Source of the DNA: Paramacrobiotus metropolitanus
Lineage: Eukaryota > Tardigrada > Eutardigrada > Parachela > Macrobiotidae
Direction: 5' to 3'
Length of the DNA: 64,000 bases
Assembly (NCBI RefSeq): GCF_019649055.1
Contig: NW_026570226.1
Location: forward strand, 682,001-746,000
Shown here piece after piece: positions 12,478-33,800 of this stretch. Numbering within the stretch: the stretch's first letter is position 1; every line of letters starts with the position of its first letter. The notes beneath the pieces were generated by a model. The model had not been told where the DNA came from. It worked only from the letters and a program-made list of their open reading frames with translations, and ran no database searches. The position numbers and the translations under genes are program-made.

Positions 12478-12707
12478 AAAAGGTATTTTTAGCACATAAT
12501 ATCATGTATGCGTAAGCATGGATCACAATTTCACTAGCCAGAATAACTGATCTTTAATTTATCGCCGCATTTAAATTACTAATAAGGCAATAATTTCTGG
12601 TTAGTAATTAAACAATTTGATTGCATTGGTTTATCATAGTGAAACTTGGAATAGCGCACCGGAAGAAAGCAGCACGCTAAACAATGCACGTTTGCAATTA
12701 ATTAATG

Positions 12708-13106
12708 CTACAATAACGCAGAACCTATAACTGAGCCTCGCATACGTACTTTGGACCAAATTGTCCAAATGGAAATAAAAATATTATTGGTAAACGTTTG
12801 TCGCTGCTGAATAAAACGTTTTGGCAAGTGATAAAAATCAAAAATCACGAAAAATCCCATCGTCAACAAAATATGCACATCGAGAACCGCTTTGTCAAGA
12901 TTACACTTGAAAAAAGGCACACGAATGAATACGAATGTACAACAGAAAAATGCAACACTCAGCAATTTGATGCAGTTTTTAAGCCGATTGATATTAGCAC
13001 AAAACTGGTCCCACGTTTCAGGCGCGATCAGCTGCGGGTACTGGTGCCGCAGTGCATAAGGAAACATCGACACCCGGAAAACGATTTGTAACCCGAGAAA
13101 ATGCAT
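12708..13106 (-). CDS. Unrecognised hydrophobic open frame (possible 5' exon)
   Basis: A 132-codon open frame begins with an ATG in good context (aacaaaATG). It has a hydrophobic start that could serve as a signal peptide and later short hydrophobic stretches. It lies just upstream of the nine-exon GPCR on the same strand. I could not join it to that gene: the upstream side of the first GPCR exon has an in-frame stop and no AG acceptor. It could be an untranslated or alternative leader, an unrelated exon, or chance. I recognise no family. Confidence 0.2.
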   Translation of the reverse strand: MHFLGLQIVFRVSMFPYALRHQYPQLIAPETWDQFCANINRLKNCIKLLSVAFFCCTFVFIRVPFFKCNLDKAVLDVHILLTMGFFVIFDFYHLPKRFIQQRQTFTNNIFISIWTIWSKVRMRGSVIGSALL

Positions 13107-15261
13107 TTTGTTCCGCCGGTATTTACATGCATCACAAGTGGCCGCCGCGGCCCGTGTGTATTAGTATTCCCCTATGATCGAACTGATTGCGCGCTCCCTT
13201 AAAGCCAAATATTGTCTTTCGCTTTAGTGTATACCCAGGGAATCCATTCGGCTGACGATGGTGTGTCATCACACCATTTCCTAAATCACCTAGTCAATTT
13301 TCCGCGAAACTTTGTTCGGTCTTCCGTGCAATCATTAAAAATGCATGAACAAGATTTAAAATGAATCAAATTAATTAACCAACCATTAGCTATGGTTGTC
13401 TCATCGCCAGCTAAGACGAACCATACCAAGAGAGCTCAGTACCGGTGTTACAACAAATTTTCGTTCTTGAAAACTCAACGACTTTTCTGGTGCAACCGCT
13501 ACTGTTGCACGTAATTAGGCAGTATGCTAATTTCAAAAGTAATGTTGCCATTAATTGTGAGTATGGTCATATCTGGAAATAGAGCAGTATATGACAATCG
13601 TAGCGCGGGCGCGCTTCTCCTGCTACGTAGATCCTGTAGCTATTAATCAAGCACCTCGCGCACAGCAGCAGAATACTACAGCAGGCAGTGGCACAGTAAG
13701 TTGCAGAAGCAACTTTAACAATCCATGTCAACCTTGGTAGAAGTACAGATAGTGAATATTAAAGATGCAGTTTAAGGTGCAAAAAAGCTAAACGTAATAA
13801 GGGAAGAAAAATTATCATTACGTCGTACAAGTCCGTACAACGAAGAAGTGCGATATACATATGAGATGAGTACAATTAATCCCGACCAGAATAGCATTGA
13901 GGAAGTGTTGTTTTATGAATTTCTGTTTTTCTAAGCACTTACAGGTGAGAATTATTAAAGGTATTCCTGATAATCCTTATTTTCTTAGTAATTACGTTAA
14001 TATTAATTGGCAAAGTTTTTGCTTCCTTCATTCGTAATAATCTGGATATAGCTGCTGTACTACAATTATGTTGGTTTACCGTGTACCCATTTACATGTAA
14101 AAAATAAATGTATCTGAATTCTGAATAGATAGTCGTTGCTTAAACAATTCTTTCGCCCGTTTCCATATCCATAGCTTGAAGCTATATTATACTTTCATAA
14201 TATACTATAGCTTTAGAAAATATGCTTTAGAAAATATGCAGCGGTATTTTCTTCGCAAATTTAAAGTACTGTCTTGCCGAGTCTAGTGTGTACAGACATA
14301 CTCCCAGTGCACTACATCATGATTGCGCAATAAATTTTTTGATGCTGAAAATGATCACTGAAGCCAGCACTCAGCACGGAGTCAACAGTACTTTAGCAGT
14401 TACGTAGTGACACGTACGCATGCGGTGGCCCATGTCGCACGCGGTTGGAATGCAAATCTTCAAAAAATCATAACTTTGTTAATTTTCGCGTTAAATTTTT
14501 ATACAAAGGCTTAAAAAACACAGAATAATACATACTAGTAGGCAGAACAAGTGGTTTTTCGTTTTTCTTTTACAGTTACGCACTGTGAGCCTATGCAGTT
14601 AGCATAGTTGTCTATGGAGGACTCATTTAAGATTTCTCATAGGCGGCTATGCTAACCACGCATGCTCACAGTGCGTAACTGCAAAAGAAAACGAAAACCA
14701 CTTTCTATATTATTTATTTTTAAGCTTGTATAAAAATTTAACGCAAATTAAAGATTTTTTGAAGATTTGCATTCAACCGCGTGCGACATGGGCCACCGCA
14801 TGCGTACGTGTCACTACGTTACTGCTAAAGTACTGTTGACTCCGTGCTGAGTGCTGGCTTAAGTGATCATTTTCAGCATCAAAAAATTTATTGCGCAATC
14901 ATGATGTAGTGCACTGGGAGTATGTCTGTACACGTCTAGTACGAGTACTAATATTTCGCTGAATTTGTTACCTTCCGGTGTCTGGTGGGACACGGACCGC
15001 ACTCGGACGGCAGCGGCAAGAGCAGGCTGTGTTATGGCTCACTTATGCCTATGCGACATGGGCAAAGACCGAGGAGCATCCCCGTTGTTCTGCAGCCCGC
15101 CAAAATTTTGTCATGAATATTAAAAAAAGTTTTGGATATTTTTGAGGTTTACCGTTTACGGTATCAGGTTTACTACCTCGACTTACTTTACTTTCCGTCC
15201 AGTCTTTCGGCCACTGCAGTTCGTTGCATGATTTAGAACAAGGTTTTTTTCACAATCGAAG
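13107..15261. other. Intergenic region between divergent GPCR and POLA2 genes
   Basis: No coding exon is recognised. The region should hold the promoters of both flanking genes, which point away from each other. It contains a 646-bp foldback insertion (14288-14933) only about 330 bp upstream of the POLA2 start codon. I see no clear TATA box or other core promoter motif that I would defend. Confidence 0.5.
14288..14933. mobile_element. Foldback/hairpin transposable element with 7-bp target-site duplication
   Basis: The arms are long inverted repeats: left about 14288-14607, right about 14647-14933, around a spacer of about 39 nt. The outer ends read GTGTACAGACATACTCCCAG and its complement. 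Internal blocks such as CACGTACGCATGCGGTGGCC recur inverted. The left arm carries about 30 extra bases (near 14521-14550). The element is bracketed by the direct repeat GTCTAGT at 14281-14287 and 14934-14940, a 7-bp target-site duplication. There is no coding capacity. The high identity of the arms suggests a fairly recent insertion, and a transcript would form a stem of about 290 bp. Confidence 0.88.
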
Positions 15262-17875
15262 ATGGCCACGGAACTAGCAACAGAACGGCTGAAAAGTGAG
15301 CTGAACGTGTTTGGTATTGAATTTCAATCCGACAGCGTTCTGGAACAACTGCACACTTTCGGAATTGTCAGCGCTTTGGATACTGACGATCTGGTTAATT
15401 CGTTCCTGGCATTCCACCAACAAAGCAAGGCGAGAAGCAAGGAGAAGATTGTTACAGCCCAAGATGTCAGTCGCTTCGAGAAACAGTCTGCCCTGCGAGC
15501 GAAAGAGGAAATTGACAAGGATCCTGATCCTGGTATGCAGCCTGAGTTTCTCACTCCGCAGAAGAATTCCGCTTCTGCCAAATCGTCCACGGTTTTCAAA
15601 ACGCCAACTAGCGCTCATCGACCAACAAAGTCCACAGCAGCGTCGAACAAAAAACCGCATGGTAGTGCTGGTGCTGGCGGGAATGGACAACGTTTTAATG
15701 GCGTAGGTTCTCCGCGGCTGGATGCGTACATGACAGATCGGATAAGCAATATCAAGCCAGATGCAAAGGTAAAGCAACAGCCATTTAACGAACGGAATAA
15801 TCAGGGCGAATTGGTGGCTTCGCATGGATTTCTACCGGATGGGTACACCTGGCAGAATCTTCCTCGAGGTATGAGGCTGTGCTTGCACAGCCATTAATCA
15901 TGATTAATGCTTGATAACTTGCAATACAGCAGTTGACTATTCACTATTGCGGGTGGACGCATACTTTAAAATCCGATTAGAAGTGGGCTTGGGTGTTTTC
16001 TCGAAGCCGTCGTATGCTAAACGATTTTTGTTACACTTTTGGAATTGTAACATTGTTGTTGCAAATTTTGCAAAATTGTTGTTCGATACAGTGCTTGATT
16101 ATCTTGCCTGTCGTAGTACTTACTTGATAATCTTGTCGTACAGTACTTGATAATCTTGTCGTCGTGTTTTTCGGGGCGTTCGTTATTTATACCAGACACC
16201 AGTTGTTTCCTTTTTAATGTTATTTTTTGTGAATGCTTTTATTTTACAGTATTGTGAGATTTGATTCTTCATTTATTTAGCTACGTCCACTGTGAAAATT
16301 TCCATCCAAGATCCATCGTCGTACTTAACCGAGCAATACCCATTGATGTTTGTCAAGTATCACGACGTAGCAGTGACACTGAGCAGTAGTCTGGAAGAAT
16401 TGTGCGAAGAAATGGCACGACAGTACAACATCCCTAAATTCTCTGCGCCTAATGTCATCGGCGAAACGTGCTACACCTGCGGCCGAATATTACCAAATCC
16501 CGATGGATTGAATGCAGATAATCTGTGGTTTCAGACATCTGGACAGTTTGGAGCCGCCATGTGCCGATTAGATATTGGCATGGTGAAAAACTGCGCCTTA
16601 TTTCCGGGACAGGTTATCGTAGCCAAGGGAATTTCCAACGGAAAAGTCTTCTCCGCATCGGAAATTTTTACGGGTTAGAGAAGTCTGGTGTCGTCTGTTT
16701 TTACTACTACATATGTGTAGTTTCACCAGTTTATATTTTTATTGTACTGTTTTTATTGTTTCCGACAGAACGCATGAGATTTGGGTTATATTTTTATTCT
16801 TCTTGCTCCTAATGTCCTTTTTATAGGCGCACCTCCGAGGCAAGTTGAGCTGGCTTTACCAGAGAAAGACACGCTGCACATTTTAGCGGCTTGTGGACCG
16901 TATAATTTGGCTGGCGAAAGCCAACCGGAGCCTTTGAAGGATTTTATTGGATATATTATCGACACCAAGCCAGATCTGGTTATATTCATGGGACCATTTG
17001 TTGATGAAACATTGGCACGCAATGAGGAATTCATGAACGAAACAACGTTCGAAAACCAGTTCAAATCTGTGGTAAGTACGCTCTGACGCATTTTGGCCAC
17101 AAAAGTTCATGGTGTTTTCGGATATTTTTTTGGAAAAAAATGAAACGGCAAAATTTTATGAGTACTGGTTTGTGGTTAAATGATTAACATGGAAATGTTA
17201 TGAATTTGCACCCGAAATTAATTTAGCTGATTGGGCGCAGAAGATAATGGAATTTAAAAACGAATATGGTTGCTTTTGCAGATGCATTTTATATTTGCTC
17301 AGATCCCCGAGAACCTTCATATTCCGATTATCGTTGTTCCAAGCGCTGGTCAACTTGTGGGAATGCCCGTCTATCCTGTAGCAAGATTTACTATGGCCGA
17401 TTGTGTGGAAAACGCTGTCGCTTTCGCTAAATCCGATGTTACTCGTCTAGTAACCTTTATACCGGAGCCGGCTCTCCTCAATATTAATGGAGTAATTGTT
17501 GGCCTGACATCCACGGATATTTTGTCGCATCTTAATCAGCACGAACTGCGATGGCGATGCAATGGACAATTGGCCGACACTGCCGGACATATGTTGCTTC
17601 AGCAGAGCTTCTATCCTTTATATCCGTCTATGATTCCTTCCGATACCATTGCTCAGAAGAAGTTTGCAAAGATCACTTATCAACCACATCTTCTAATTGC
17701 TCCATCGGAGCTACCGGCATTTGCCAGATTTGTTGCGGGTACTATTTGTGTTAATCCTGAGAAATTAGGACAGACTGATTCTGGAGGTTGTTTTACGCGA
17801 ATTTTTATTCGAACTGCGGATGATTACCATAGTGACGCTGCAGCCAGAATTGCGGCAGATGTAATTAGGATTTAA
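15262..17875 (+). CDS. POLA2: DNA polymerase alpha subunit B (POLA2), complete, 612 aa
   Basis: Four exons join in phase: 15262-15868, 16281-16673, 16827-17071 and 17282-17875. The protein is the non-catalytic B subunit of the DNA polymerase alpha-primase complex, which tethers primase to the polymerase at origins and lagging-strand starts. Residues 1-75 form the N-terminal helical domain. A Ser/Thr/Pro-rich linker follows (TPQK, TPTS), where cyclin-kinase sites usually lie. The OB-fold region (about 215-335) ends in FPGQVIVAKGIS. The inactive phosphodiesterase-like domain includes AACGPYNLAG, GPFVDETLA, VVPSAGQ, GLTSTDILSHL, FYPLYPS, LIAPSELPAFARF and ICVNPEKL. Its length is close to the 598 aa of human POLA2. 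The start ATG has a good context (gaagATGG). A polyadenylation signal AATAAA lies at 18145-18150. A decayed second copy is at 24.6-26.0 kb, so this is the functional copy. Confidence 0.95.
16095..16163. repeat. Short tandem repeat in POLA2 intron 1
   Basis: The unit ACTTGATAATCTTGTCGTACAG, about 23 bp, occurs at least twice in direct succession (from 16122), with a more diverged unit before it. The repeat is wholly intronic, and no function is apparent. Confidence 0.7.
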
Positions 17876-18144
17876 TTTGATTGTTTGTTCCAGCCAATCT
17901 TTTGTCGGTTTTTGCAAAGTTTTCTTTTTTTTAGTTTTTTTTACTGTATTTTGCTGCATAATGCATATCTAGACATCGGAATTTCTGTTTTAACAACTAC
18001 AGTAAATGAAAGGGATAGTAGCCGAGCTGCGCTGTTTTTTATTGGCAACCGAATATGCATTGGCAACTGTCTGATAAGAACAAAGTTGACACAAACATAC
18101 ATGCGATGGATGCTTTGTACAACTCATACAAAGTGATTTACTGA

Positions 18145-18150
18145 AATAAA
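18145..18150 (+). promoter_or_regulatory. Polyadenylation signal of POLA2
   Basis: A canonical AATAAA lies about 270 nt after the POLA2 stop codon. It precedes the last exon of the opposing ABCG pseudogene, so the two 3' ends are tail to tail. Confidence 0.55.
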
Positions 18151-18306
18151 AATCACTCAGAAAGCCAGTATTCGACATTATACGAGCATATCGTACCGTG
18201 ATAATTAATAAATTTTCAGACAATTTTTTGCTTCCAGAAGGGCAACGTTCTAATGACACTTATGACAGTACAGATACATGTGAACAGCAAGCAGTAAGAA
18301 CAACCT

Positions 18307-20601
18307 TTACCGACGATTTCGCAAAAATAGAAACAGGCACCCTAGTATATGGAATCCGGCAAATACAACGCATACCATGCCCAAATCCAGCTCTAGTTTG
18401 TCCTGCAAAAAAACACAATAATGCATTCCAAGTTCAAATTGGTTCAACGGAATCGCCACCGAGCGTGTTTAGGGTCTGCCGGGTCACGTCTGCATGCGCG
18501 AAAGCTGCTTATCAATTGAAATTTTATTGATTCTTATTTCTTACGGTAACTTTACAAAAATAAATTGTTGTGGCGAATAACCACACCCATTTCCGGAACG
18601 CACCGGGTCATACTCAAAGTCATGCATGACCTCCGCTCCTGTCTTTATACACGATGTCCCAGCTTCCCATTGCAAGCTGAAATGAATCATTTTTTAACGA
18701 CACTGTCCTCCTCTCCGGCATAACTAAATACCGCTTCCTTGCTGACTTACTGATGTTATGAACGTCCTTCCAGTGGACAATGCCCAGAATTTCATTTCCA
18801 TATCGAAACCAGCTAAACCACTGCAGCCACGCTAAAAATTTCGGAAGAGTTCTAAAATCAAACGTTTATTACGTCCAGGTAAAGGTAAATTCCATTGTAT
18901 GCTAGAAGCAAAAGCAACGTAAATTTCCAGTTGGTGTGGGATTAGCTCGGAACTGGTACAAATTCCTCATCACGTTCTTAATGTGTATTGTCACAGCAAA
19001 CGTCGTAGCCGCTTCCGGTAGTCTTGAGTCCACCATGTCTTCGTCCGTAGACGTTGGTTTGGTGGTCGCTCCAACAATAACGGTCGAAGTGATGCTGTTT
19101 GGCGGTGGAGTTTATTTAAAGCTCAGGTACATCAGGTAGGTTGTAACGCACAATACGGACGCGTCAATGGCAAAGGATGGCAGCTACGCCAGACGAACAT
19201 GTGATGCTATTATCATGAACAGCAAAGGTCAGGATATAAAAAGAGCGGAACTTTTCAAAATAAAAATCAAATTTATTTTATTATGTTACCATGCAAACAA
19301 AAACTCAGAACTAATTTTATTATGAGCAAGGTACTCTTTATGTCGCTGTCTTTGTTATCGCTCCACACATTTCGATATTCATTAAAAGTGGGAAAAGTTG
19401 CAACATTACCCATCCCAGAACTTGAGCCATGTATAGTACACGAGCAGTCTGTACATATATGCAGAAACATTCTCTTCTAAGCAACGTCATTGATCGTTGG
19501 AATACCTGTTTTAAATAAGTAATAAATTAGTATGCTGTCAAACGGTATATACAGTATGTCAAAAGCAGCAACATTTCTACGGTGCTTTTGTAACTGGAAT
19601 AACATTTCAAACTAGCAGGACATTAATTAACTTGACTCTCACCGTTACGAGATCCAGCATAACCCAAATGAATTCTCTGAAAGTATGAACAGTACTTTAA
19701 ATACGTTTTCCCTAATTAAATAGTATTACTCAAGTGGAACCGGCGGAAGACTGACACTTGCTTAATCTTTTCTTACCAGTCGTGTACAAGAATAATGCTC
19801 CATTAATGCTCTGAATTCCCCTTTGCGTAATTTGGCCCCATGATAGTAAATCATTCCGTATATAAAGGCAATAATCTACAAGAGTAAGATTTCGCAGTTA
19901 AGATTTCCTGAGCATGCAGTGCGGAAGTTTTCGCGATCACCAATGAGGGTGTCATATTATTAGTAGTAGTTCAGTACAATTTCGACCTACTATTTCAGCA
20001 CGTACTATTTTTTGAATTGTTCGCCCTCTAAACATGTCGGTATTGCGTAAATTGTCCGGCATTCCTCGCCACAATAACCACCGTGATTGCATCCAAATTG
20101 ACACTCGATAACTGCAAAGAAACAGGTATTATAAAACAGTGCACTAATTGTACAATAGTAAGTGCAGTCTCATGACAATTTTTATTCGTAGTTCTTACAT
20201 ATTTCGTCAATGCAAAGACTGCTCGCATTTCGGCCTCTTTCCCGGCCACAGCATCTAGGGTAGTTATTGGTGAACCTCGGCGGCCTCTGCCGACTGGTCG
20301 TACGCATCGCAAATGGCTCGTATATATTCGCTCGCGGCACCGGTAAACATCACCAGCGGAAATCACCAAGGATTTTATGTAATATTCTGCCGCGGGATTA
20401 TACAATTCGCGGCACGTATATATCCCAGAGCTGAGAAATACTGGATAGCGCCGGTAAGTGACCCTTGGTATGCGACTCGGCTTTCTGCCGTTAACAATAG
20501 TCTGAACATGTGTCTATTATTGATTCCTATAATCGGTGCTTGATTAGTCTACAATTTTTTGCCGAATGCAAATATTTTGTAAACATGCTAAATACCATGG
20601 T
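18307..20601 (-). pseudogene. ABCG half-transporter pseudogene (left duplicate), with an inverted exon
   Basis: This is a copy of exons 6 (part) to 15 of the intact white-like ABCG gene at 26449-30809. The last exon copy (18402-18307) is still open and ends in the same stop. Upstream exons are broken by one-base indels. The exon-14 copy loses a base (GGGAAGCTGGGACA against GGGAAGCCCGGGACA), the exon-10 copy loses one, the exon-11 copy gains one (GAATGTTTCTGC against GAATATTCTGC), and the exon-9 copy is also shifted. Most of the exon-12 copy (about 18935-19130) has been flipped and lies on the plus strand. Exons 1-5 and the ATP-binding Walker A part are absent. No functional transporter can be made from it. 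Confidence 0.9.
18935..19130 (+). other. Micro-inverted ABCG exon 12 segment
   Basis: About 196 bp encoding the membrane block [20 protein letters not shown], followed by a block containing [20 protein letters not shown], is on the plus strand, while all surrounding ABCG sequence is on the minus strand. In the intact gene the same DNA is at about 27069-27263 on the minus strand. The flanks are collinear in both copies: ttccagttgg on the left and atcaggtagg on the right. The breakpoints are clean to within a few bases. Confidence 0.9.
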
Positions 20602-21926
20602 AAGGAATCATTTGCAGTTGGAAATGTGTCGATTGGAACCCGACTGGCGCGAAACCAGCCTATCTGCCTTTACGGCACATAGGAATAGGGCACGTCAATC
20701 GAAGTTGGAATACTTCGAAGACAATCGAGGTGTAGTGCGAGTGTTCACAACTTTCAGAATGATGATTCCAAGGCTGACAACAGTTTCTGTGTGAGGCATG
20801 GAAACTTAACTGCCAGCCTTACCACTACTAGCCTTCACTATGGTATAAGCAGCGCCATGTATATGGGTATATCTATAGATATATGTATGAACATTTGTGC
20901 CATGAGCAAGATCTGGACCAGCAAGCTCTGGCTTCTCCAAAATTTATCGATTGGAGTGGAATTGTTAGTAGGCCTTAAAGGATAGAGGCTGTGCGAGGGT
21001 GTTTGAGACTGCAGTACTTTGATTGGTTTACTTTGCTTTCTGGAAAATCAACGTTTAATGAACGTATATGTAGAACCAAAAATGATAATCACAGCTGCGG
21101 TTATATTCCCAGCTAATTATATGCAGTATAAATGTAATTAGAATATAGGTAATTTATGTATAATATAGTGTAAGATACCATTTGAGACTAAAAGGTCGCG
21201 CGCTCCCGTGCCAGCATTCCGTACGCATGTGGCGCAGTACACTGTATGCATATTACATAGTCTTGAATAGTTGAATTATAACAGCCACCGATATTTTCAC
21301 GAGGAAGACTGTTTGCCCCTATCCAGACAAATCTGCTTGTACCGAACAATGCCACATCCGGGATGCTGTACATGTCCTATTAGATCTTTCTTGGACAATA
21401 TTATTATGACCGACCATCCTGAGACAACCGTACAGGACTTAGCCTGCTATGTATAAGCATCAGCATAAGAAGCAGCAGGATGGAGAATGTTGTACAGCGC
21501 TGCGGTTGTTTAACTGAATGCGCCGGAGATTTACTTGCCATTCCTCATCTTCTCAATTGCAAAGTCGGTGTTGGGGCCACTTGGGGCTGTTTTGATGCTT
21601 TCGTAGACTCTGGCGTTTGTGGCATTAGCCTACTTGTTAAAGTGTCATTTCTCCTTAATGGATACGTGTTTTAATAATTGTTTGTAATATCTATATTATA
21701 ATTTATTTTGCTCACGAGATGGATATTAATACATGGCGTCTTCGCTACCCAAAATAATAAACTCCAGCATAGGTAGTTGCCGTGCGCTCGTCCCGCGGAA
21801 TTCTGTATATTACAACAGCCCCAAAAAGGAGCCAAATTTACTGAGCACAGTTCCTGTTTTGTCTGTTTTACTTACCGGACCACAAAAATATTTGTGTTGT
21901 CATATTGTGAGAGATTGTTATCGGCA
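20602..21926. other. Unrecognised stretch after the left duplicate
   Basis: Past the duplication boundary there is an open frame at about 20586-20794 (+), from MVRNHLQLEMCRLEPDWRE to a stop. It has an acceptor-like tttgcag before LEMCRLEPDW and a possible donor (CGAG/GTGTAG), so it could be an exon remnant. I recognise no domain. Further open frames at 20791-20985 and 21480-21674 have no supporting evidence. Confidence 0.3.
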
Positions 21927-23035
21927 ATGGATGAGTCGTCAGTGCAGCACCATTCCACGGAAAGCGGTTGCCTTTGCCTAGTGTGCCAGTCTGAAAAGCA
22001 GTTTCGGGAAGAAACGCGAAAAGCTTACATGAGGCGCTCTTGCATTTTATCTATTACATCGCATTTTAAGTGGATAATTAGTATCAATGTGGTCCTGCTT
22101 GTTGCGACAGTGACGGTTCTGTACTGGCTCCCTTCGCCATACGTATGGCGTACGTACGTATGGCTCCCCTCGGCGAACATCCCTAAGTGCAAAAACAGGG
22201 AGGTAAGCAAATAATTTTTATAGAGTTTTACGTAATTAAGAAGGCACGTAATTATACAACAGATACGCAGTTAATCCACATACTGTAAATTTGAGTATTG
22301 TACCTGTACCCGAATACACGGTAGATAGAGTCCGTTCTATTAAGAGAAAGTGGTAAAAATGTAATCGAAACTTTTCAGGTGCGCTATGACTTCTTCTGCA
22401 AATACTTCTGGCTTGTCCTTGAAGGCCTCAATGTCGGTACCGCTCCGGTTGGATGCCTTAGTAGCATACTATCATGCATTTTGGGTTGGCGCATTGTGAG
22501 CGAAATGCCCGCTTGGCGCATTTTATCCACTTTGGGATTGGAGGCCGGACAGATGCTGACAAAATACTGGGCAGAAACCATTAGTCTCGAGTGTTGTATT
22601 CTGCTCAATTTGACATTCTGCGCATTTTACTGCTTGTACGCAATTGCCGTGCAGTGGTTCGTCTTGGTCCATGATGTCGACTACGTATCAGGTCTCCTGG
22701 AGTTAGTGACCTATAATTTTGAAAAGATCTCGGGCCGAGAATTTCTCCTCGCGCCGCTGCTGCCTACCGGCATAGCTACTTTAAATATAATAGTCTGCCT
22801 GCGTTGCCAGTCCGAGATTCTTACAATGAAAAAGTTGCTGCTGTTTGAATATTACCCCAAAGAAACAGCGAATGCGATTTGGGAAAGTTTATGTGCGAAA
22901 GCAACGCTGTTGACATATTTGGAACGATTTGACCTTTGCATAACAGAACTGGCAGTGTGTGCAGCTCATTTCGGGCAGTTGTTGTTCCATGCACTGAAAA
23001 AACTGAAAATTGTGTTATGTTTGAATCCTCGGTAA
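21927..23035 (+). CDS. Unrecognised multi-pass membrane protein, 310 aa
   Basis: Two exons join in phase: 21927-22202 (donor GAG/GTAAGC) and 22379-23035 (acceptor ttttcag/GTGCGC). AATAAA follows the stop at 23042-23047. The N-terminal 45 residues are hydrophilic with a CLCLVC cysteine motif. Strongly hydrophobic segments then follow: WIISINVVLLVATVTVLYWL, a span through SSILSCILGW, a long one from ECCILLNLTFCAFYCLYAIA, and LLAPLLPTGIATLNIIVCL. At least four membrane passes are likely. The C-terminus is amphipathic and basic (HALKKLKIVLCL). I do not recognise the family. A diverged chemoreceptor or other lineage-specific membrane protein is possible, but nothing specific supports this. It lies between the left duplicate and the third ABCG fragment. 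The intact splice sites, long open second exon and close poly(A) signal support a real gene. Confidence 0.6.
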
Positions 23036-23041
23036 TCGTGA

Positions 23042-23047
23042 AATAAA
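23042..23047 (+). promoter_or_regulatory. Polyadenylation signal of the multi-pass membrane protein gene
   Basis: AATAAA occurs seven bases after the stop codon of the 310-aa gene. If used, the 3' UTR would be only some 20-30 nt long. Confidence 0.45.
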
Positions 23048-23100
23048 ACAATGCCTGTATATTTATGCGCTTGTGGATTACAAATATGTAAATTCCGCTG

Positions 23101-23530
23101 TTTACCCACTTTTAATGAATATCGAAATGTGTGGAGCGATAACAAAGACAGCGACATAAAGAGTACCTTGCTCATAATAAAATGGTAGTTCTGAGTTTTT
23201 GTTTGCATACTAACATAATTTAAAATAAATTTGGTTTTTATTTTGTCAAGTTCCGCTGTTTTTATATCCTGACCTTTGCAATTCATGATGATAACATCAC
23301 ATGTTCGTCTGGCGTAGCTACCATCCTTTGCCATTGACGCGTCCGTATTCTGCGTTATAACCTACTGGTAGAAGTTCCTCATTACGTTCTTAATGTGTAT
23401 TGTCACAGCAAACGTCGCAGCCGCTTCCGGTAGTCTTGTGTCCACCATATCTCCGTCCACGTTGGTTTGATGGTCGCTCCAACAATAACGGTTGCAGTAA
23501 TGCTGTTCGGCGGCGGTGGAGTTTACTGAC
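23101..23530 (+). pseudogene. Third ABCG fragment (intron 11 and exon 12), inverted
   Basis: This matches the intron between exons 11 and 12 and exon 12 of the ABCG gene, but on the plus strand. The exon-12 acceptor is kept (ggcgtag/CTACCATCC at 23318). Relative to the intact gene the exon has lost 24 bases in frame (the codons from CTG ATG GTG to AAC), and the next TAC has become TAG, a stop. The fragment ends at GGAGTTTACTGA, where the homology stops. It begins just after the poly(A) signal of the neighbouring membrane protein gene. Confidence 0.85.
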
Positions 23531-23819
23531 TCATCTATCAGGGTCTCACATTTGCTCCATTGCAATGCAGATTTCAACAAGTGCTAATGCTAATCGACAA
23601 CTGGCCATGCACTCTGCAGGCAGACTTGGAATACTTACTATTTTCGATTAAAGAGTTTTTTCCACATCTTTTTTGTTGTTTTGGTGCTTCCACTTTCCAG
23701 CTTCCGAGGTCGTGTTTGAACGTGTCATTTTGATTTAATTGCTAACTAGAGTTCAGATTTTGTTTGCACCGTATTGAGAGTCTGTTGGGACTGAGCGCGT
23801 CGGGTACGGGAACAACATT

Positions 23820-23862
23820 TTTCGGAATTGCTAGCACTTTGGATACTGACGATCTGGTTAAC
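23820..23862 (+). pseudogene. POLA2 exon 1 remnant
   Basis: The block containing ACTTTGGATACTGACGATCT matches POLA2 exon 1 near 15375-15398, with a few changes around it. This is all that is left of exon 1 in the right-hand copy. Directly after it the sequence changes to the start of a different small gene. Confidence 0.7.
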
Positions 23863-23872
23863 TGGTGCGATA

Positions 23873-24515
23873 ATGCCCAAATATCCTGGAGTATTTCATG
23901 GGCTCTGCGTTATCCTTGCGATTGTAGTTAGTGGCCTTCTTGCTGTGGTAGTGTTGTGTGGGCTTCATGGCGCGGCGTCGATGTCCTGCCCGCGCACACA
24001 CGCTGACACTGATGACTGGGCTGCTAGTAAGTGTCCTGCCTTTCAAGTTTACGAGATACATCCAGGCTCGAGTTCGAGAAGTTTTTGCAGATTGTCGGCA
24101 CAACAGGTGTTTTTTAGCTGTGAGCAGGCCATTGTTGTTGGAGAGTTGTTGAGGGTTTTACAGTGTAGTTCTTGATTGGACCATGGCTCCAACAAATTTT
24201 GATTGAGGTCATCTCTTCATGGCAGCAATGTTATTGTAATCTTCATGACGGTTCCAGGATCACTTACTTTTATAGGGAATTTGTGATTGTTCTATGCCCC
24301 CAATCTGTTTTTACGAATAAAAATATTCGTCCTTTGTAGAGTTCCCCGGGACACTCGCAATGCTGGCGGGCTTACTGCACATTGTAACGGCCGTCTTGGC
24401 AGCTTACGCTGGGTATTACTTCCGGAACAAGGAAGACATGCCCGGAGGAATACGTGCCGCTACGGGAGCCAGTTTGGGCGCTCCTTTCGGGGGGGGCGGA
24501 AGAAGGAGTTGCTAA
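23873..24515 (+). CDS. Small two-TM membrane protein (109 aa) of unknown family, inside the decayed POLA2 locus
   Basis: Two exons join in phase: 23873-24026 (donor GCTA/GTAAGTG) and 24340-24515 (acceptor cctttgtag/AGTTCC). Exon 1 gives MPKYPGVFHG followed by a strong membrane segment (LCVILAIVVSGLLAVVVLCG) and a short loop with one cysteine (SMSCPRTHADTDDW). Exon 2 gives a second membrane segment (MLAGLLHIVTAVLAAYAGYY) and a basic, Gly-rich end (PFGGGGRRSC). A run of eight G at 24489-24496 lies just before the stop. With one G fewer, the frame would stay open, add a third hydrophobic segment (ILPIVALMLLACAVAIP), and read directly into the POLA2-derived exon. The true C-terminus is therefore uncertain. 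It occupies the place where POLA2 exon 1 and intron 1 should be in this copy. The family is not recognised. Confidence 0.5.
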
Positions 24516-24598
24516 TCCGGCTAGAGCGCGACGCCGTCCCTCCATCCTACCAATTGTAGCGCTAATGCTTCTTGCGTGCGCGGTTGCGATTCCAACTA

Positions 24599-26007
24599 TT
24601 GGAGATCCATCCTCATTTTTAACCGAGCAGTACCCGTTAATGTTTGTCAAGTATCACGACGTAGCAGTGACACTGAGCAGTAGTCTGGAAGAATTGTGCG
24701 AAGAAATGGCACGACAGTACAACATCCCTGGATTCTCTGCGCCCAATGTCATCGGCGAAACGTGCTACACCTGCGGCCGAATATTACCAAATCCCGATGG
24801 ATTGAATGCAGATAATCTGTGGTTTCAGACATCTGGACAGTTTGGAGCCGCCATGTGCCGATTAGATATTGGCTTGGTGAAAAACTGCGCCTTATTTCCG
24901 GGACAGGTTATCGTAGCCAAGGGAATTTCCAACGGGAAAGTCTTCTCCGCATCGGAAATTTTTACAGGTTAGAGAAGTCTGATGTCGTCTGTTTTTACTA
25001 CTATATGTGTAGTTTTACCAGTTCATTTTTTTATTGTATCCGACAGAAAGAATTAGATGTGGATTTGATTTGTATTCTTCTTGCTTCTGATGTCCTTTTT
25101 GTAGGCGCACCTCCGAGGCTAGTTAAGCTGGCTTTACCAGAGAAAGACACGCTGCATATTTTAGCGGCTTGCGGACCGTTTAATTTGGCAGGTGAAAGCC
25201 AACCGGAGCCCTTGAAAGATTTTATTGGATATGTTATCGACACCAAGCCAGATCTGGTTATATTCATGGGTCCGTTTGTTGACGAAACATTGGCACGTAA
25301 TGAGGAATTCATGAACGAAACAACGTTCGAAAACCAGTTCAAATCTGTGGTAAGTACGTTCTGACGCATTTTAGCAACAAAAGGTCATGGTGTTTGGGAC
25401 ATTTTTTTGGAAAAAAATGAAACGGTAAAATTGAATACTGGTTAGTTGTTAATGATTGACATAAAAATGTTATAAATTTGCCCCCGAAATTAATTTAATC
25501 TATTGGGCGCAGAAGGTAATGGATTTTGAAAACAAGTATGGTTGTTTTTGCAGATGCATTTTATATTTGCTCAAATCCCCGAGAATCTTCATATTCCGAT
25601 TATCGTTGTTCCCAGCGCTGGTCAACTTGTGGGAGTGCCAGTCTATCCTGTACCAAGATTTACAATGACTGATTGTGTGGAAAACGCTGTAGCTTTCGCT
25701 AAATCCGATGTTACTCGTCTATTAACCTTTGAACGGGAGCCGGCATTGCTCAATATTAATGGGATAGTTGTCGGCCTGACATCCACGGATATTTTGTCGC
25801 ATCTTTATCAGCACGAACGGCGATGGCGATGCAATGGACAATCGGCCAACACTTCTTATTGCTCTATCGGAGTTACCGGCCTTTGCCAGATTTGCTGCGG
25901 GTACTATTTGTGTTAATCCTGAGGCGAATTTTTACGCGAGTTTTTATCGAACTGCGGATGACTGCCATAGTGAAGCTGCAGCCAAAATTGCGGCAGATTT
26001 TAATTAA
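24599..26007 (+). pseudogene. POLA2 pseudogene (right duplicate), lacks exon 1 and parts of exon 4
   Basis: Exon 2 (24599-24967), exon 3 (about 25107-25351) and exon 4 (from 25554) are clearly copied from POLA2 with few changes, and exon 2 and 3 frames and splice sites remain intact. Exon 4 has lost about 125 bp of the segment coding for the FYPLYPS region (junction near 25853), which shifts the frame to a stop at 25916. It has a further deletion after the VNPE region. Exon 1 is reduced to a remnant at 23820-23862. Exon 2 is fused in one frame to sequence from the small two-TM gene upstream. No complete B subunit can be produced, though a truncated or chimeric transcript is possible. Confidence 0.85.
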
Positions 26008-26143
26008 AATTTAATTTTGTTTGTTTCCAACCAATCTTTTGCCGATTTTGGTCAAATTTTACTTAGTTTATTGTATTTTGCATATGTAGATATCGTAATT
26101 TCTGTTTTAGCAGCTGAATGGAACGAATAGTAACTGCGCTGTT

Positions 26144-26149
26144 TTTATT
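26144..26149 (-). promoter_or_regulatory. Possible ABCG polyadenylation signal
   Basis: AATAAA on the minus strand lies about 300 nt past the ABCG stop, beside the 3' end of the POLA2 pseudogene, so the opposing 3' ends lie close together or overlap. Confidence 0.35.
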
Positions 26150-26280
26150 GGCAACCGAATATGCATTGGCAACTGTCTGATAAGAACAAAGTTGACACAA
26201 ACATACATGCGATGGATGCCTTGTAAAACTCACACAAAGTGATTAACTGAAACTAAAATCAATCAGAAAAGCCAGAATTC

Positions 26281-26346
26281 GACACTATATATCTATGATA
26301 TTCCATTTATCGTGACATTATATCTCTATGGTATTCCATTTATCGT
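26281..26346. repeat. Two 33-bp tandem units
   Basis: The units start GACACTATATATCTATGATA and GACATTATATCTCTATGGTA, and both end ATTCCATTTATCGT. The left copy of the segmental duplication has no second unit at the matching place (near 18176), so the tandem duplication arose after the copies separated. Confidence 0.75.
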
Positions 26347-26448
26347 ATCGTAATAATTAATAAATTTTCAGATAATTGTTTTGCTTTTAAAAGGGCAGCG
26401 TTCTAATGATAGTACAGACACGTGAGAAACAGGTAGTAAGAACAGCCT

Positions 26449-29400
26449 TTACCGACGATTTCGCAAAAATAGAAACAAGCACGCTAGTATATGAAATCCG
26501 GCAAATAAAACGCATACCATGCTCAAATCCAGCTCCAATTTGTCCTGCAAAAACCAAAAACATGCATCGCAGGTTCAAATGGTTAAATGGAATCGCCACC
26601 GAGCGTGTTTGGTGTCTGCCGAGTCACGTCTTCGTGCACGAAAGCTGCTTATCAACGAAATTCTATTAATTCTTACTGCAATTTTTCGAAAATAAATTGC
26701 TGTGGCGAATAACTACACCCATTTCCGGAGATACGCACCGGGTCATACTCAAAGTCATGCATGACCTCCGCTCCTGTCTTTATACACGATGTCCCGGGCT
26801 TCCCATTGCAAGCTGAAATGAATCATTTTTTAACGACACTGTCCTCCTCTCCGGCATAAACTAAATACCGTTTCCTTGCTGACTTACTGATATTATGAAC
26901 GTCCTGCCAGTGGACAATGCCCAGAATTTCGTTTCCATATCGAAACCAACTGAACCACTGCAGCCACGCTAAAAATTTCGGAAGAGTTCTAAAATCAAAC
27001 GTTTATTACGTCCGGGTAAATTCCATTGTATGCTAGAAGCAGAAGCAACGTAAATTTCCAGTTGGTACCTCAGCTTTAAATAAACTCCACCGCCGAACAG
27101 CATTACTACGACCGTTATTGTTGGAGCGACCACCAGACCAACGTCTACGGACGGAGACATGGTGGACACAAGACTACCGGAAGCGGCTGCGACGTTTGCT
27201 GTGACAATACACATTAAGAACGTGATGAGGAACTTGTACCAGTTCCGGGCTAATCCCACCATCAGGTAGGTTATAACGCAGAATACGGACGCGTCAATGG
27301 CAAAGGATGGTAGCTACGCCAGACGAACATGTGATGTTATCATCATGAATTGCAAAGGTCAGGATATAAAAACAGCGGAACTTGACAAAATAAAAAATCA
27401 AATTATTTTATTTAATCAAATTATGTTATCATTTTATTTTATTGTGTTAGTACTCAAACACAAAATCAGAATTATTATTTTGTGATGTACAAGGTACTCT
27501 TTGTATCGTTGTCTTTGTTACCGCTCTGCATGTTTCGATATTCATTAAAAGTGTGAAAAGTTGCAGCATTACCCATCCCAAAACTTGAGCCATATAGTAC
27601 ACGGGCAATCTGTACATATATGCAGAATATTCTCTTCTAAACAACGGCATTGCTCGTTGGAATACCTGTTTTAAATAAGTAATAAATTAGTATGCTGTCA
27701 AACGATGAATACGATGAATACGAATGTCAAACGATCAAACGATTTCGTATGTCAAGAGTAGCAACAATTCTACGCTGCTTCTATAACTGGACTAACATCT
27801 TTAAGCTAACATGACAATGATTAACTTCATTCTCACCGTTACAAGATCCAGCATAACCGCAAAGGAATTCTCTAGAAGTATAAGCAGTATTTTAAATAAG
27901 TTTTCCTTAATTAGATAATAATATTTAAGTTGAGCGGGCGGAAGACTGACACTTCCTTAAGCTTTTCTTACCAGTCATGTACAAGAATAACGCTCCATTG
28001 ATGTTCTGAATTCCCTCTTGCGTAAATTTGGCCCCATGATAGTAAATCATTCCGTATATAAAGGCAATAATCTACAAGAGTAAGATGTCGCAGTTAAGAT
28101 TTCCTGAGCATGCAGTGCGGAAGTTTTCGCGATCACCAATGAGGGTGTCATATTATTAGTAGTAGTTCAGTACAATTTCGACCTACTATTTCAGCACGTA
28201 CTATTTTTTGAATTGTTCGCACTCTAAACATGTCGGGATTCCGTAAATTGTCCAGCATACCTCGCCACAATAACCAGCTTAATTGCATCCACATTGACAC
28301 TCGATAACTGCAAAGAGATAGATGAGTCAGAATGTAAAGTATTGTAAAACAGTGCACCTAATTGTACAACAGTATTTGCAGACTCATGTCAATATTTTGT
28401 TAGTAGTACTTAGATGTTTCGTCAAATGCAAAGACTGCGCGCATTTCGGCCTCTTTCCCGGCCACAGCATCTAGTTCTTGGCGAACTTCGGCGGCCTCTG
28501 CCGACTGGTCGTACGCATCGCAAATGGCTCGTATTTGCTCGCGGCACCGGGAAACATCGCCAGCGGAAATTGCCAAGGTTTTTATGTAATATTCTGCGGG
28601 ATTGTACGATTCGGGGCACGCATAACCCAGAGCGGAGAAATACTGGATAGCGCCGGTAAGTGACCCTTGGTATGCGACTCGGCCTTCGGCCATTAGCAAT
28701 AGTCTGCAAATATGTGTCTATTAATTCCTGTAATCGGCCCGTGATCAGTCTACTAATTTTCGCCGAATGCAGTTACTTTGTAAACATGCTAAAGACCACG
28801 GAAGATGGCTGATGAATTACGCAAATAATGGTCTTTCCTTGTTGGGCCAGTTGTTTTAAAACGTTCACAACCTATGTAAAAAACACACATACGATATGTA
28901 TAGTAAACAAAATCTGTGCTTACGCAAGGAAATAGTCGTATAACACTGTTCTTAATAATTAGTTGTATTTAAATTCCGGTGATGTATTTAGCCCACCTGC
29001 TCGGCCATGAAGGAATCAAGCCCGGTGGTTGGTTCATCACAGAAAAGAATTGCTGGATTAACGATTAGCTACGGACAACAAGATTAGAAACAGTAGACGT
29101 GAAGCCAAAGGACAAGAAATGTGCACAATGAAGTACATAAGTTGTCTATTTTGTTCGATCTAATATTACGACTATATACATGTAATCCAGTACCTCTGTG
29201 GCGAAGGCCAGACGTTTACTTTCCCCGCCGGAAATGCTTTTTTCCACTCCTGGCAGGCCGATTCGAGTATTCTGACACTTTCGCAAACCCATCTGTTGCG
29301 AAACATAATTACTAACTAAATGTATGCGATTACTGATTTTTGTGTAATTTGTATTGTCACACGTTATGCAGGCGCAGCTTAAACATAAATTTCAGGATAC

Positions 29401-30809
29401 TAGTGCTAGTTTCAAGATTCTCAACGCGCAGTATACTCAATAGTCAATACCTGTAATAGTATAGTATAGCTCACTACTATAAATCTATTCGAAAATAAAT
29501 CAAGTCAAATCCATAACTTACCAAGTCGAGCAGTTCAGTAATTCTTGTTTCTCGTTCCTCTTTACTCAGCAGGTTACCAATTTTCAGCGCTGCTTGGAAT
29601 CGCAGGTGCTCTTTGACCGTCAAGGTTGGAAAAAACAAGTCATCCTGCTGTACGTAGCCGGATATTTTGGATATTCCGGACCTCAGTTCGACACCATTTA
29701 CTTTTACGGAGCCATTTATCAAAAGGTTGTCGCTCAGGTTTCGGTTTGTCAGGACATTCATCAGAGTCGATTTTCCCGCTCCACTGTAAAAAGCGAAGAG
29801 GATGTCGCAATCGTACTTAATAATTTTCAACAAGCCCCGTATAAAAGGTAGCGCGCATAATATAAACTGTATGAAAATGAAAATTAATTCGACGTCAACT
29901 ACATATGGTTGCAAAATTCGGAATTGTCCGAAACCGGCGAATGCAGGCGTAGTTCGTGTTATTAGCCACTGCTTACAGCAGGCACTGTACTTATGTAGTA
30001 CCAATTAGCTATTGGGAGCCTGTGACCGCGTGGCCGAATGTTAATATTATTTTACAAAATTTACGTGCAGCACATACAGAACAGAAAAGCATCCCTAATA
30101 ATCCATCTCTAGGAATATATAGTATAGTTATTACTCACCTCGATCCTATCACTGCCATTACTTCTCCCGCTCGGACTATCCCACTGACTGTAAAAAAATT
30201 CCATAACTTGACCATCAGTTACGGTGAGTTACCATAGTTTTTTTTATATACTCTGTACAAGTAAGAATGCTTCCTTATGGTTAAGAGTGGGTATGGCTTG
30301 AATTTTCCAGTTATGCGGTATGTGCTCTTTAGGCATTGGTATCCAACATCGAAGATAAAGGTAGTTTTGTAACTTGTATCAATTTTTATGACATTGTATT
30401 AAAATTTCAAATATTAGCCGCGACACATACCATTTCTTAGCAGTTGTGTCGGACCATCTCCCACAGCTTCGGAATACTGGTTGCTGCCAAGCCAGCGATT
30501 GCGCTGTTTAGGAATGGTGTAAACACAAACGTTCTCAAATGCTAAATTAGCGCGCATACCATCTCCCGCACTGAGAAGAGTTTTTGATCTCTTAGCAAAC
30601 GGGCTTTTGTGTGCGGGTACTGCGCCATAATGACCGGAAGAGCGACTTGATAGCTTTTCTCGAATAGCCGGATCCCAGAGAACATCTTCTTCAAGGCGAG
30701 GCCGCAAAAGAGATTGTCGTTCTTCCTTACGGTTTAACTGGTTTCGAACTGCATGACCAGTTTCCGAGTACGATTTTGATCGAGGCTTATATGCGTAGGT
30801 ATCCGCCAT
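26449..30809 (-). CDS. White-like ABCG half-transporter, complete, 699 aa
   Basis: Fifteen exons join in phase: 30809-30431, 30187-30139, 29783-29522, 29292-29194, 29068-28997, 28871-28777, 28703-28410, 28307-28202, 28071-27972, 27871-27837, 27665-27573, 27313-27069, 26988-26888, 26812-26739 and 26544-26449. The N-terminal ATPase has Walker A GSSGAGKST (residues 141-149), Q-loop GYVQQDD, signature SISGGESKR (about 249-257), Walker B ILFCDEP with D274/E275, and H-loop histidine at 307. The following [14 protein letters not shown] and [14 protein letters not shown] match the linker of Drosophila White. The transmembrane half starts near residue 417 and includes [14 protein letters not shown], the cysteine-bearing loop CNGKPGTSC, and a last helix ending LFLRNRR. 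Half-transporters work as dimers; White-type members move pigment precursors or other small molecules across intracellular membranes. The substrate here is not shown. Two broken copies of its 3' part lie at 18.3-20.6 kb and 23.1-23.5 kb. Confidence 0.95.
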
Positions 30810-33800
30810 ATTTCATTCTAACTGTTAAAAGCTAACAGGAAAATCTGAGGAAAAAATGACAAATTAATATTAGGAATTAAAACAACCAGTGCTACAACAA
30901 ATTAACATGGTCGCCTGAAATGAGAATTCGATATAAAGGAAATTTAGGATCAAGCAGTTTGAACATTTGTGTACAACTCTGTCCTGGAAAAATTTTGATG
31001 ATGTACAAGTATCTGGATGCAAAGCTGCAGACGCGTTGCATTTATCTAATCAGTAAGGGCTAATCTTATTTAAACTATCTATTTTCGAAGATCCACTTCA
31101 TTTTATCTCGTGTGAATGCAGCACTTGTGCTGTACTGTGTATATATTAGGGTTAATTATGGAAAGAAAATTAAGAAGTTAAGAAAGTATAGGTACCTTTT
31201 CAGTTCAGTTCAGCCATAAATACAATTTTTAATTCCCTCAAGCTTATTATGAAGCCTCATTTGGCTGCATTTATACGTACACATATCATGTAAAACTGCA
31301 CAGTAAAAAAATTTAAAAATCCATCGGCAAAAAGTAACAGACTGACTGCTGTAGCCTGTATGTAGTAAGTTCCTAGTAACTATAAATGTTCTCGGTACAT
31401 GTACTTTCTTGTTGTACGACAGGTATCATAGAAAATCAAGATCTGCAGTGATTCTGCACTATAAATATCGCACGAATCATTAATAACTGAACGGACATCA
31501 GGTAATTTCCAAAAAGCTATTTGCCTATTGGAACAGGATAATGCCTTGGAATTTGAGCGTTCCAGTAAACGAACTCCTGTAAGATTCCAGTAAAATGGTC
31601 CACAAAGACTTCTGCAATATCAATGCCATTGCTAATAATACTATTATTCTGTCTTGAAAGTAATCAAGCACAACATAAACTACTACTTTTTATGCCCCAT
31701 TTACATCAGACTCATTAAATCAGTTGAAACCCTCATTAGCACATCGAGAATTAATGTTGTCATCATAGTGGGCAAAGTAACCACACACAATAATACGTAT
31801 GCTGTAATTCTTGTCAACATACTCATGTGGTTTCCTACACAAGCTACATAAAAACAGAAGTAATACCTTTTAGAATATGTGGTCCAGGTATTAATTCTGA
31901 GATCCTCTTGGCTCGCCCGGTGTGCAAAGCTAATTAGATGGATTTTGCTGCAACAGCAGACGAATTTGACGAACGTACAAATTTAGATACGCAATCTACC
32001 CGGCTTTACCGACTAATAATTGTAAAGAAGTTGCAGTTATTTCTAAGACTTAATACGCCTAAAATTGGTCAGATAAACAAATGTTTTACCTCGGTCCATT
32101 TTCTGATTCAAGCTTAGATATTCGCATCTTCCGTACGCCGACGAAGCTGCAGTGGCAACGCTCAACGTAGAGGAAATAAAACTCGCTTCCATATATACGA
32201 AGGATTTTCTAAAATAATTATAAGTTAAAAAAGCAAAGAATACAGTATACCTAACCACTGCAAAGGACTTGTGGATATTTACCTTTTTCGAAGAGCTAAT
32301 CTTTCGTGCTAGCGGCATTTTGTTGCATTCTGCTTGTGTCGCGCTTTTCGGGTCGTTTTCCGGGCTTGTCTGCGCAGCAACTGGTCGGTAAAAATAGCAA
32401 ATAGTGTAGTCTTCCACATCATATTCGAGGAATTTTAAAGTTATTTATAAACAAATACCCAAAGTTATAAGTTACTGGTACAAGTACAATTTTAAATGAT
32501 CGGGACACCGAGTTTTTGCAAGACCCGGCTATATACAGCCACCACGTGGCAGATGTCTACAATATGTATCACTGTATCGCTGCAGATTTTATCCGTTCAA
32601 ACAAGTTTTAGTACAGTAACTATTGCTGCTCTGCAGTGTTATCAAAGCAAATTGCAAGCAGTACAAACAGAACGCTCCGTTTACACTCGTGTACTAGTTC
32701 TAAATAAGTTTTCAACTCGCGAAACGGTACACTATGGTATATATGAGTATTTCGAGTGCTATGTTTTATCCGAAGACAGATTTTTACTGGTAATTGTTAA
32801 CTTCTTCGACCGCACTCGTATATAAATGCAGTTAATAACAGCTATACTATGCCGGTAATAACACAGTATTAGGAATACAACTTATCATTGTTGTATTATT
32901 ATATGCATCTCTAGCGTCTAAGTCGTGGTAATTGCTTGTTTTAGCAGGCATCTGCCGACTGCTAACTAAAGCATGAAAAATCAGCGCAAAATTATTGTCA
33001 GCTTTTTTTACTCCGAAACTACAGTAGAAAGCCTGTCTACAAGTGCAGATACAACTGCCGTATTTATTGTGCTATAGTACACCAAGCTGCGTAGAGCATG
33101 GCCGTACAAGCTGTCTAGCACAGCTGCGTTTACTTTAACACCACGAATACAATTTGTCGCGCTGACCTTTTTGAAAAACACATTGTGCTGATAAACTTAT
33201 TGTTATCTAACACAGTAAAATTCACAGCAGCAATCTCGGCTGTCTGTTTTACTCATTAATCTGAAAACATTCTGTCGGTATGAGAATGGAAATTGTCCAA
33301 CCCTACTAATATAATTTTAGGCTGCGTTTGCGTTATCCGACAGTGCAGATGTAGTTGGCTAGTTAAAGCGATTGGTCTTCCAAAATTTGCAAAACAACTT
33401 TGCTACGGTAATAATAACATGGCCGTACGTGCTGTTCATTTCTGTGTACGTACATAAATAAATTGCACATTAATCAAATAGAAGGACAGAACTAACTATA
33501 AGAACTCAAGATACTTAAAAATATGGTACAACTATAACACCATTGGTTTTTGCCAGATTTGTCACGACGAGGATTTGTCAGGAGGATTTGTCAGGACGTT
33601 GGGAATAATTAATTAATTACTACAGTAGAGGGGTGCACTAACATATCGTGCAGTGATGTAAGCAGTACATGCATGCATGTATAGAAAAAAAGTGGTAGAA
33701 AAAAGGAACACTTTTTTAACAGGTTAAGGAGTTGCATGAAGTTGATGCGGCAACGTGCACATACGGTCATTGTAAGTAACCTGGTATCACGCAGACTTGT

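Follow-up and report, generated by a model that had tools for sequence, protein, structure and literature searches.

Whether a duplicated gene pair in which each gene survives in one copy only records two separate losses or a single disturbance is the question raised by a locus of the tardigrade Paramacrobiotus metropolitanus (assembly GCF_019649055.1, contig NW_026570226.1, positions 682,001 to 746,000), analyzed here as a window of 64 kb numbered from its first base. This window contains two direct copies of a segment of about 4.2 kb carrying POLA2 on the plus strand and, tail to tail with it, an ABCG transporter gene on the minus strand. The left copy holds a complete POLA2 and a broken ABCG (POLA2-L and ABCG-L) and the right copy a complete ABCG and a broken POLA2 (ABCG-R and POLA2-R), as an earlier sequence-only reading of the locus had described. 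As far as sequence alone can show, the outer genes are intact and both inner ones are broken, each lacking its 5′ part beside the spacer that separates the blocks (20601–24602). In our judgment, this arrangement probably arose through one direct duplication, followed by 5′ loss of both inner genes at one rearranged junction.

Self-BLAST of the window returned the two blocks as direct repeats (Table 1), which were 91.7% identical over 4,049 aligned sites once an inverted piece in the left copy had been flipped back. With the exception of this piece (195 bp), introns and intergenic DNA are homologous between the blocks, in the same order and on the same strand. Identity reaches well beyond the exons, with a noncoding divergence (introns and intergenic DNA) of p = 0.109 (197/1,812 sites; Kimura two-parameter distance 0.118; approximately 89% identity) and an exonic divergence of p = 0.063 (140/2,232 sites). 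Because the introns and the intergenic stretch can be aligned, the duplication is, as judged from this alignment, a direct one at the DNA level of a segment with the tail-to-tail pair, consistent with the single event proposed earlier; a retroposed (processed) copy is ruled out by introns that are present and homologous in both blocks, and homology confined to exons by the noncoding identity. When the left block was used to search the genome (a 169.8-Mb assembly of 533 contigs, in which lack of a match does not prove absence), seven matches including itself were found, all inside this window. It is unlikely that an assembly artefact has displayed two haplotypes, or a misjoin, as a tandem duplication: both blocks lie within one contig, the window contains no N, and the flank at 28802–34800 matched only itself in the genome, while the flank at 9500–15600 presented 125 matches of which those listed other than itself all fall within about 14276–14945, a dispersed repeat. 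Moreover, the noncoding divergence between the copies (11–13%) far exceeds usual allelic levels.

POLA2-L consists of four exons, with a stop codon at 17875. Its protein matches the POLA2 chain 8g99_B in PDB across residues 5–611 (E = 7.8e-58), and its exons presented the Pfam domains Pol_alpha_B_N and DNA_pol_E_B in the order known from POLA2; the OB model of Pfam was scored for the exon 2 frame of the right copy only. Eight matches to POLA2 exons were found in the whole assembly, every one at this locus, and no further POLA2 was found. In POLA2-R, the splice acceptor and the initial 28 bp of exon 2 are missing, and exon 4 carries five indel events, the largest a 110-bp deletion, and has no intact 3′ end. 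Nevertheless, 336 codons can be read without interruption between an ATG at 24565 and a stop at 25914, and exons 2, 3, and 4 have kept the splice sites that join them. Exon 1 of POLA2-R is gone apart from a 47-bp remnant (89% identity, E = 5e-9) found in the expected place upstream of the right exon 2, so that POLA2 exon 1 is not unique to the left copy, as had been stated. Two side observations concern the DNA directly upstream of the two POLA2 copies. A fold-back (inverted-repeat) dispersed element at 14276–14945, which matches both strands at dozens of places at least, lies directly upstream of POLA2-L. A 64-codon open frame at 24321–24515 lies directly upstream of POLA2-R; it had no Pfam match at E ≤ 1, and the 60 of its 64 residues that were searched in the genome matched only themselves, which speaks against a known or repeated protein.

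ABCG-R, with 15 exons whose borders were placed by hand, has GT-AG borders in 14 of 14 introns and encodes ABC_tran (6.4e-26) followed by ABC2_membrane (7.6e-40), the domain arrangement of a half-transporter. The protein matches the ABCG1 chain 7r8c across residues 120–693 (E = 3.5e-84) and also ABCG2, the top E-value in the PDB list being that of the two-domain transporter CDR1 (2.7e-91); more distant ABCG relatives occur elsewhere in the genome, e.g., on contigs C64 (46%) and C43 (51%). ABCG-L lacks exons 1–5 and most of exon 6, of which 25 aligned sites remain, and block homology stops within this exon (left 20600, right 28801). Indel events in its exons number 11, including one at the edge of the inversion; some, in exons 7, 9, 10, 11, and 14, shift the frame, and there is a nonsense codon at position 395. 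The inversion covers the splice donor of exon 12 and the 3′ portion of that exon; near the two edges of the corresponding right-copy segment we found TACCT and AGGTA, which are mutually inverted and, as a match of five bases, would suit an origin by template switching. The alternative raised in the sequence-only reading, that each block received a partial insertion, is weakened for POLA2 by the position of the exon-1 remnant and stands for ABCG, where homology ends within exon 6.

Approximately 2.5 kb of the 4.0-kb spacer is related to DNA on other contigs. A short dispersed repeat begins 3 bp past the end of the left-block homology, a second one is located at about 24132–24260, and 23596–23800 has a relative on contig C120. 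Between them lie a member of a multi-copy family encoding a putative membrane protein and, inverted relative to both blocks, a third ABCG fragment; no remnant of ABCG exons 1–5 was found in the spacer. The family has relatives on contigs C68, C67, and C29 and no Pfam match at E ≤ 0.01; the frames are open in the window and C68 copies, and each of the six other matches listed has an internal stop. Because dN/dS (the ratio of nonsynonymous to synonymous divergence) between the window and C68 copies is 0.89 (confidence interval, CI, 0.56–1.48), the family appears to be fast-evolving or relaxed.

We propose that a direct duplication of the segment would have made ABCG-L and POLA2-R the inner genes, both oriented with the 5′ end toward one junction, and that this junction would have turned into the patchwork now seen, composed of dispersed repeats, a gene-family member, an inverted ABCG fragment, and a crumb of POLA2 exon 1. 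Both inner genes would have lost their 5′ ends there (ABCG-L losing exons 1–6 at birth or later), while the outer genes stayed whole, presumably with their own upstream DNA, leaving the genome with one complete copy each of POLA2 and ABCG. Because the two inner genes have their 5′ ends on opposite sides of the junction, a single disturbance there may suffice for this outcome; two independent losses could have happened but need not be assumed. The reciprocal pattern by itself is weak evidence, since random independent losses would give the one-each outcome in 2 of 4 cases and the outer-outer outcome in 1 of 4. The label of reciprocal decay fits in that each gene has one whole and one broken copy, but does not call for two losses, and "textbook divergent resolution", as the pattern had also been called, denotes the loss of different copies in different lineages, whereas a single genome is concerned here. 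A reciprocal pattern in one genome should not be read as two independent losses where orientation makes one damaged junction enough.

After the duplication, the copies seem to have gone on exchanging sequence. Differences between the blocks are clustered, their variance in 100-site windows exceeding that of all 5,000 of 5,000 shuffles that kept the exon and noncoding totals, and the longest identical run, of which 14% is exonic, measures 133 bp (P = 0.011) and the next, within POLA2 exon 2, 129 bp (as a second-longest run reached in 0 of 5,000 shuffles). A two-state model, with rates set by the analyst, called three low-divergence tracts (Table 1), all of which cross exon borders; tract 2 spans ABCG exons 14 and 13, the edge of exon 12, and introns. 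Because selection alone would follow exon borders, the tracts suggest gene conversion between the copies as the simpler reading, on statistical and indirect grounds. The third ABCG fragment is mosaic: at the 43 ungapped sites where the left and right copies differ, 41 match one copy (the two matching neither were dropped), with 16 right-like and 3 left-like sites before right-copy position 27400 and 2 right-like and 20 left-like sites after it (Fisher P = 1e-6). Changes private to the fragment number 11 in 157 sites (against right-copy 27081–27246), 0 in 130 (27265–27395), and 1 in 117 (27430–27560). Because of this switch and the uneven private changes, the fragment would be a recombinant, or else a piece of greater age that later conversion overwrote in part. 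Exchange between the copies is thus indicated by clustering, tracts, and mosaic fragment alike, each statistical and indirect evidence.

Synonymous divergence (dS) between the copies is 0.13–0.15, and 0.15–0.21 outside the low-divergence tracts; the earlier description of the locus as "caught early", with introns still alignable, holds only in a relative sense. Inter-copy dN/dS was 0.26 for POLA2 (bootstrap CI 0.15–0.42) and 0.34 for ABCG (CI 0.21–0.57), with no significant difference between the two (Fisher P = 0.61), where a ratio of about 0.5 would be expected with one copy neutral from birth. For the expected numbers of changes, the ratio of the live copy was set at 0.05–0.1. POLA2 presented 31 nonsynonymous changes as compared to 48–64 expected if one copy had been dead from birth (Poisson P ≤ 0.006), and outside the tracts 28 as compared to 56–59 (dN/dS 0.25). 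As its dN/dS is below the dead-from-birth expectation, also outside the tracts, POLA2-R was probably functional, or under selection, for part of its life and would have decayed afterwards. ABCG-L may have been truncated from birth, with the right breakpoint of the duplication in ABCG exon 6 and only POLA2-R decaying later; we give this a chance slightly short of even, and as a sub-case of the account with one rearranged junction it shares in the probability of that account. Homology that stops within exon 6, with a dispersed repeat 3 bp beyond, the lack of any trace of exons 1–5 found in the spacer, and the ABCG ratio outside the tracts (dN/dS 0.40, CI 0.23–0.69; 37 nonsynonymous changes as compared to 48–50 expected, P = 0.03–0.06) all agree with truncation at birth, which would also resemble the partial inner genes of human RCCX modules; however, over all codons ABCG presented 38 nonsynonymous changes as compared to 52–60 expected if always neutral (P = 0.001–0.03), a deficit that conversion from the live copy could explain. 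These rejections of death from birth, firm for POLA2-R and less so for ABCG-L, together with the different lesion patterns of the two broken genes, would also fit independent reciprocal decay, in which both pairs were once complete and functional and the losses of ABCG-L and POLA2-R had nothing to do with each other; but both losses lie inside, and it is at one and the same rearranged junction that the two genes have lost their 5′ ends, and we regard such decay as unlikely. Estimates of the dead fraction for the two losses overlap and are wide, and dating is confounded by gene conversion.

Several observations weigh against the account of one duplication with 5′ loss at a single junction. The 47 bp of exon 1 left in place mean that exon 1 and intron 1 of POLA2-R were not removed by one simple deletion, and the lesions in its exon 4 are separate from the junction damage. 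When the spacer was compared with the outer flanks, similarity that would mark the duplication breakpoints was limited to the exon-1 remnant and matches of ≤31 bp at E ≥ 0.46, and the sequence does not prove a single junction event. Exonic indels are uneven, with 0 in about 907 sites of POLA2-R (exon 2 to the first part of exon 4) vs. 11 in 1,164 sites of ABCG-L (Fisher P = 0.003; comparison picked post hoc), and dN/dS in POLA2 is 0.115 for exons 2 and 3 vs. 0.454 for exon 4 (Fisher P = 0.025; subsets likewise picked post hoc); if anything, these subsets point to longer constraint on POLA2-R exons 2 and 3 than a pseudogene predicts. For the age of the spacer gene, the signals differ: the noncoding distance to its C68 relative (0.178) is greater than that between the blocks (0.118), and its coding dS to C68 (0.16) is near that of the copies. 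Insertion of this gene when the duplication happened would agree with the coding value and not with the noncoding one, so that the evidence points both ways.

The same exonic pattern bears on the possibility that POLA2-R is alive as a truncated gene re-started at the ATG at 24565, with the OB domain and part of the phosphodiesterase domain. The open frame, the kept splice sites, the indel-free exonic stretch, and the low dN/dS of exons 2 and 3 would all suit such a gene, but most of exon 2 belongs to a low-divergence tract where synonymous changes are scarce too (dS 0.04 inside, 0.21 outside), so conversion explains part of the pattern; the copy no longer has exon 1 or the 3′ portion of the phosphodiesterase domain, and the supporting subsets were picked after the data had been seen. 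We consider a living POLA2-R improbable.

Layouts of this kind have been described in humans. According to one account, MTX1 lies directly beyond GBAP1 and convergent to GBA1, with an MTX1 pseudogene between GBA1 and GBAP1; the outer genes work and the inner copies are pseudogenes, GBAP1 is non-processed and 96% homologous in coding regions, and gene and pseudogene recombine and undergo gene conversion with each other (PMC8255797). As in that GBA1–MTXP–GBAP1–MTX1 arrangement, a convergent pair occurs here twice in the same orientation with the outer genes whole and the inner copies broken, although the present case is known from its sequence only; unlike it, the copies here have a larger divergence (dS of about 0.15), both inner genes lack their 5′ ends, the left copy has a micro-inversion, and in the spacer there are a gene-family member and a third fragment in inverted orientation. 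The human RCCX modules (STK19/C4/CYP21/TNX), where a partial TNXA ends the first module and a partial RP2 starts the second, likewise are tandem modules with partial copies at the inner junction, but are variable in copy number and contain more genes (PMC11542561). For DPY19L2, a functional gene relocated by duplication and loss within low copy repeats has been described (PMC1475853); there, as here, where the functional gene sits depends on a duplication and on which copy is then lost, but that case involves low copy repeats on two chromosomes, one gene, and loss of the ancestral copy, whereas the survivors here stay outer and gene order would not change (PMC1475853). For tandem duplication random loss in nuclear genomes, the literature found concerned mitochondrial genomes, as judged by titles and the opening parts of abstracts. 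By this comparison, the present locus would be a more diverged and more rearranged case of the arrangement already known from GBA1–MTX1. It offers a datable example of a duplicated pair, one of its members a replication gene, that has gone back to single copy and left a rearranged scar. One could further suppose that, after tandem duplication of a tail-to-tail pair, the native upstream DNA stays with the outer copies, whereas the inner ones meet head to head at a fragile junction and are therefore regularly lost; we hold such a positional rule to be doubtful. If true, this locus would be an independent case beside GBA1–MTX1 and RCCX.

Table 1. Coordinates of the duplicated POLA2–ABCG locus and associated features in the window.
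Feature	Position	Strand	Basis or remarks
Left copy of duplicated block	16309..20600	+	self-BLAST, alignment
Right copy of duplicated block	24603..28801	+	self-BLAST, alignment
POLA2-L, complete gene, 612 amino acids	exons 15262-15868, 16281-16673, 16827-17071, 17282-17875	+	gene model, Pfam, PDB, genome search
POLA2-R, broken	24603..25998	+	alignment, indel list, frame check
POLA2 exon-1 remnant of right copy, 47 bp	23820..23866	+	matches 15357-15403
ABCG-R, complete, 15 exons, 699 amino acids	26449..30809	-	gene model, Pfam, PDB
ABCG-L, broken, remnants of exons 15 to 6	18307..20600	-	tblastn, indel list, codon comparison
Micro-inversion in ABCG-L, 195 bp	18936..19130	+	self-BLAST vs. 27065-27259, 95% identical
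Third ABCG fragment, exon 12/intron 11	23101..23525	+	self-BLAST; ABCG sense on +, inverted vs. both blocks
Low-divergence tract 1	left 16346..16723, right 24640-25015	.	7 differences/376 sites; POLA2 exon 2 into intron
Low-divergence tract 2	left 18583-18935 and 19101-19130 (inverted piece), right 26715-27094	.	10 differences/375 sites
Low-divergence tract 3	left 19823..20024, right 28018-28220	.	1 difference/202 sites; ABCG intron 8 and parts of exons 9 and 8
Short dispersed repeat	20603..20712	.	matches on C53, C52, C48, C228, C41
Member of multi-copy two-exon putative membrane-protein family	20909..23095	+	frame parts 21927-22196, 22361-23032; closest relative found on C68

A scan by the bacterial code found no tRNA in the window, and a search with the telomere repeat (TTAGG)5 gave 0 matches. 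Elsewhere in the window, an inverted repeat pairs 5452–5717 with 5926–6196 (83% over 276 aligned columns), and an exon of the secretin receptor family (Pfam) is located at 9726–10094 on the minus strand. Exons with PAS, ion-channel, and cyclic-nucleotide-binding domains (Pfam) were found at 36694–53155 on the plus strand; together with the receptor exon they point to an animal, and we take these to resemble an ERG-type potassium channel.

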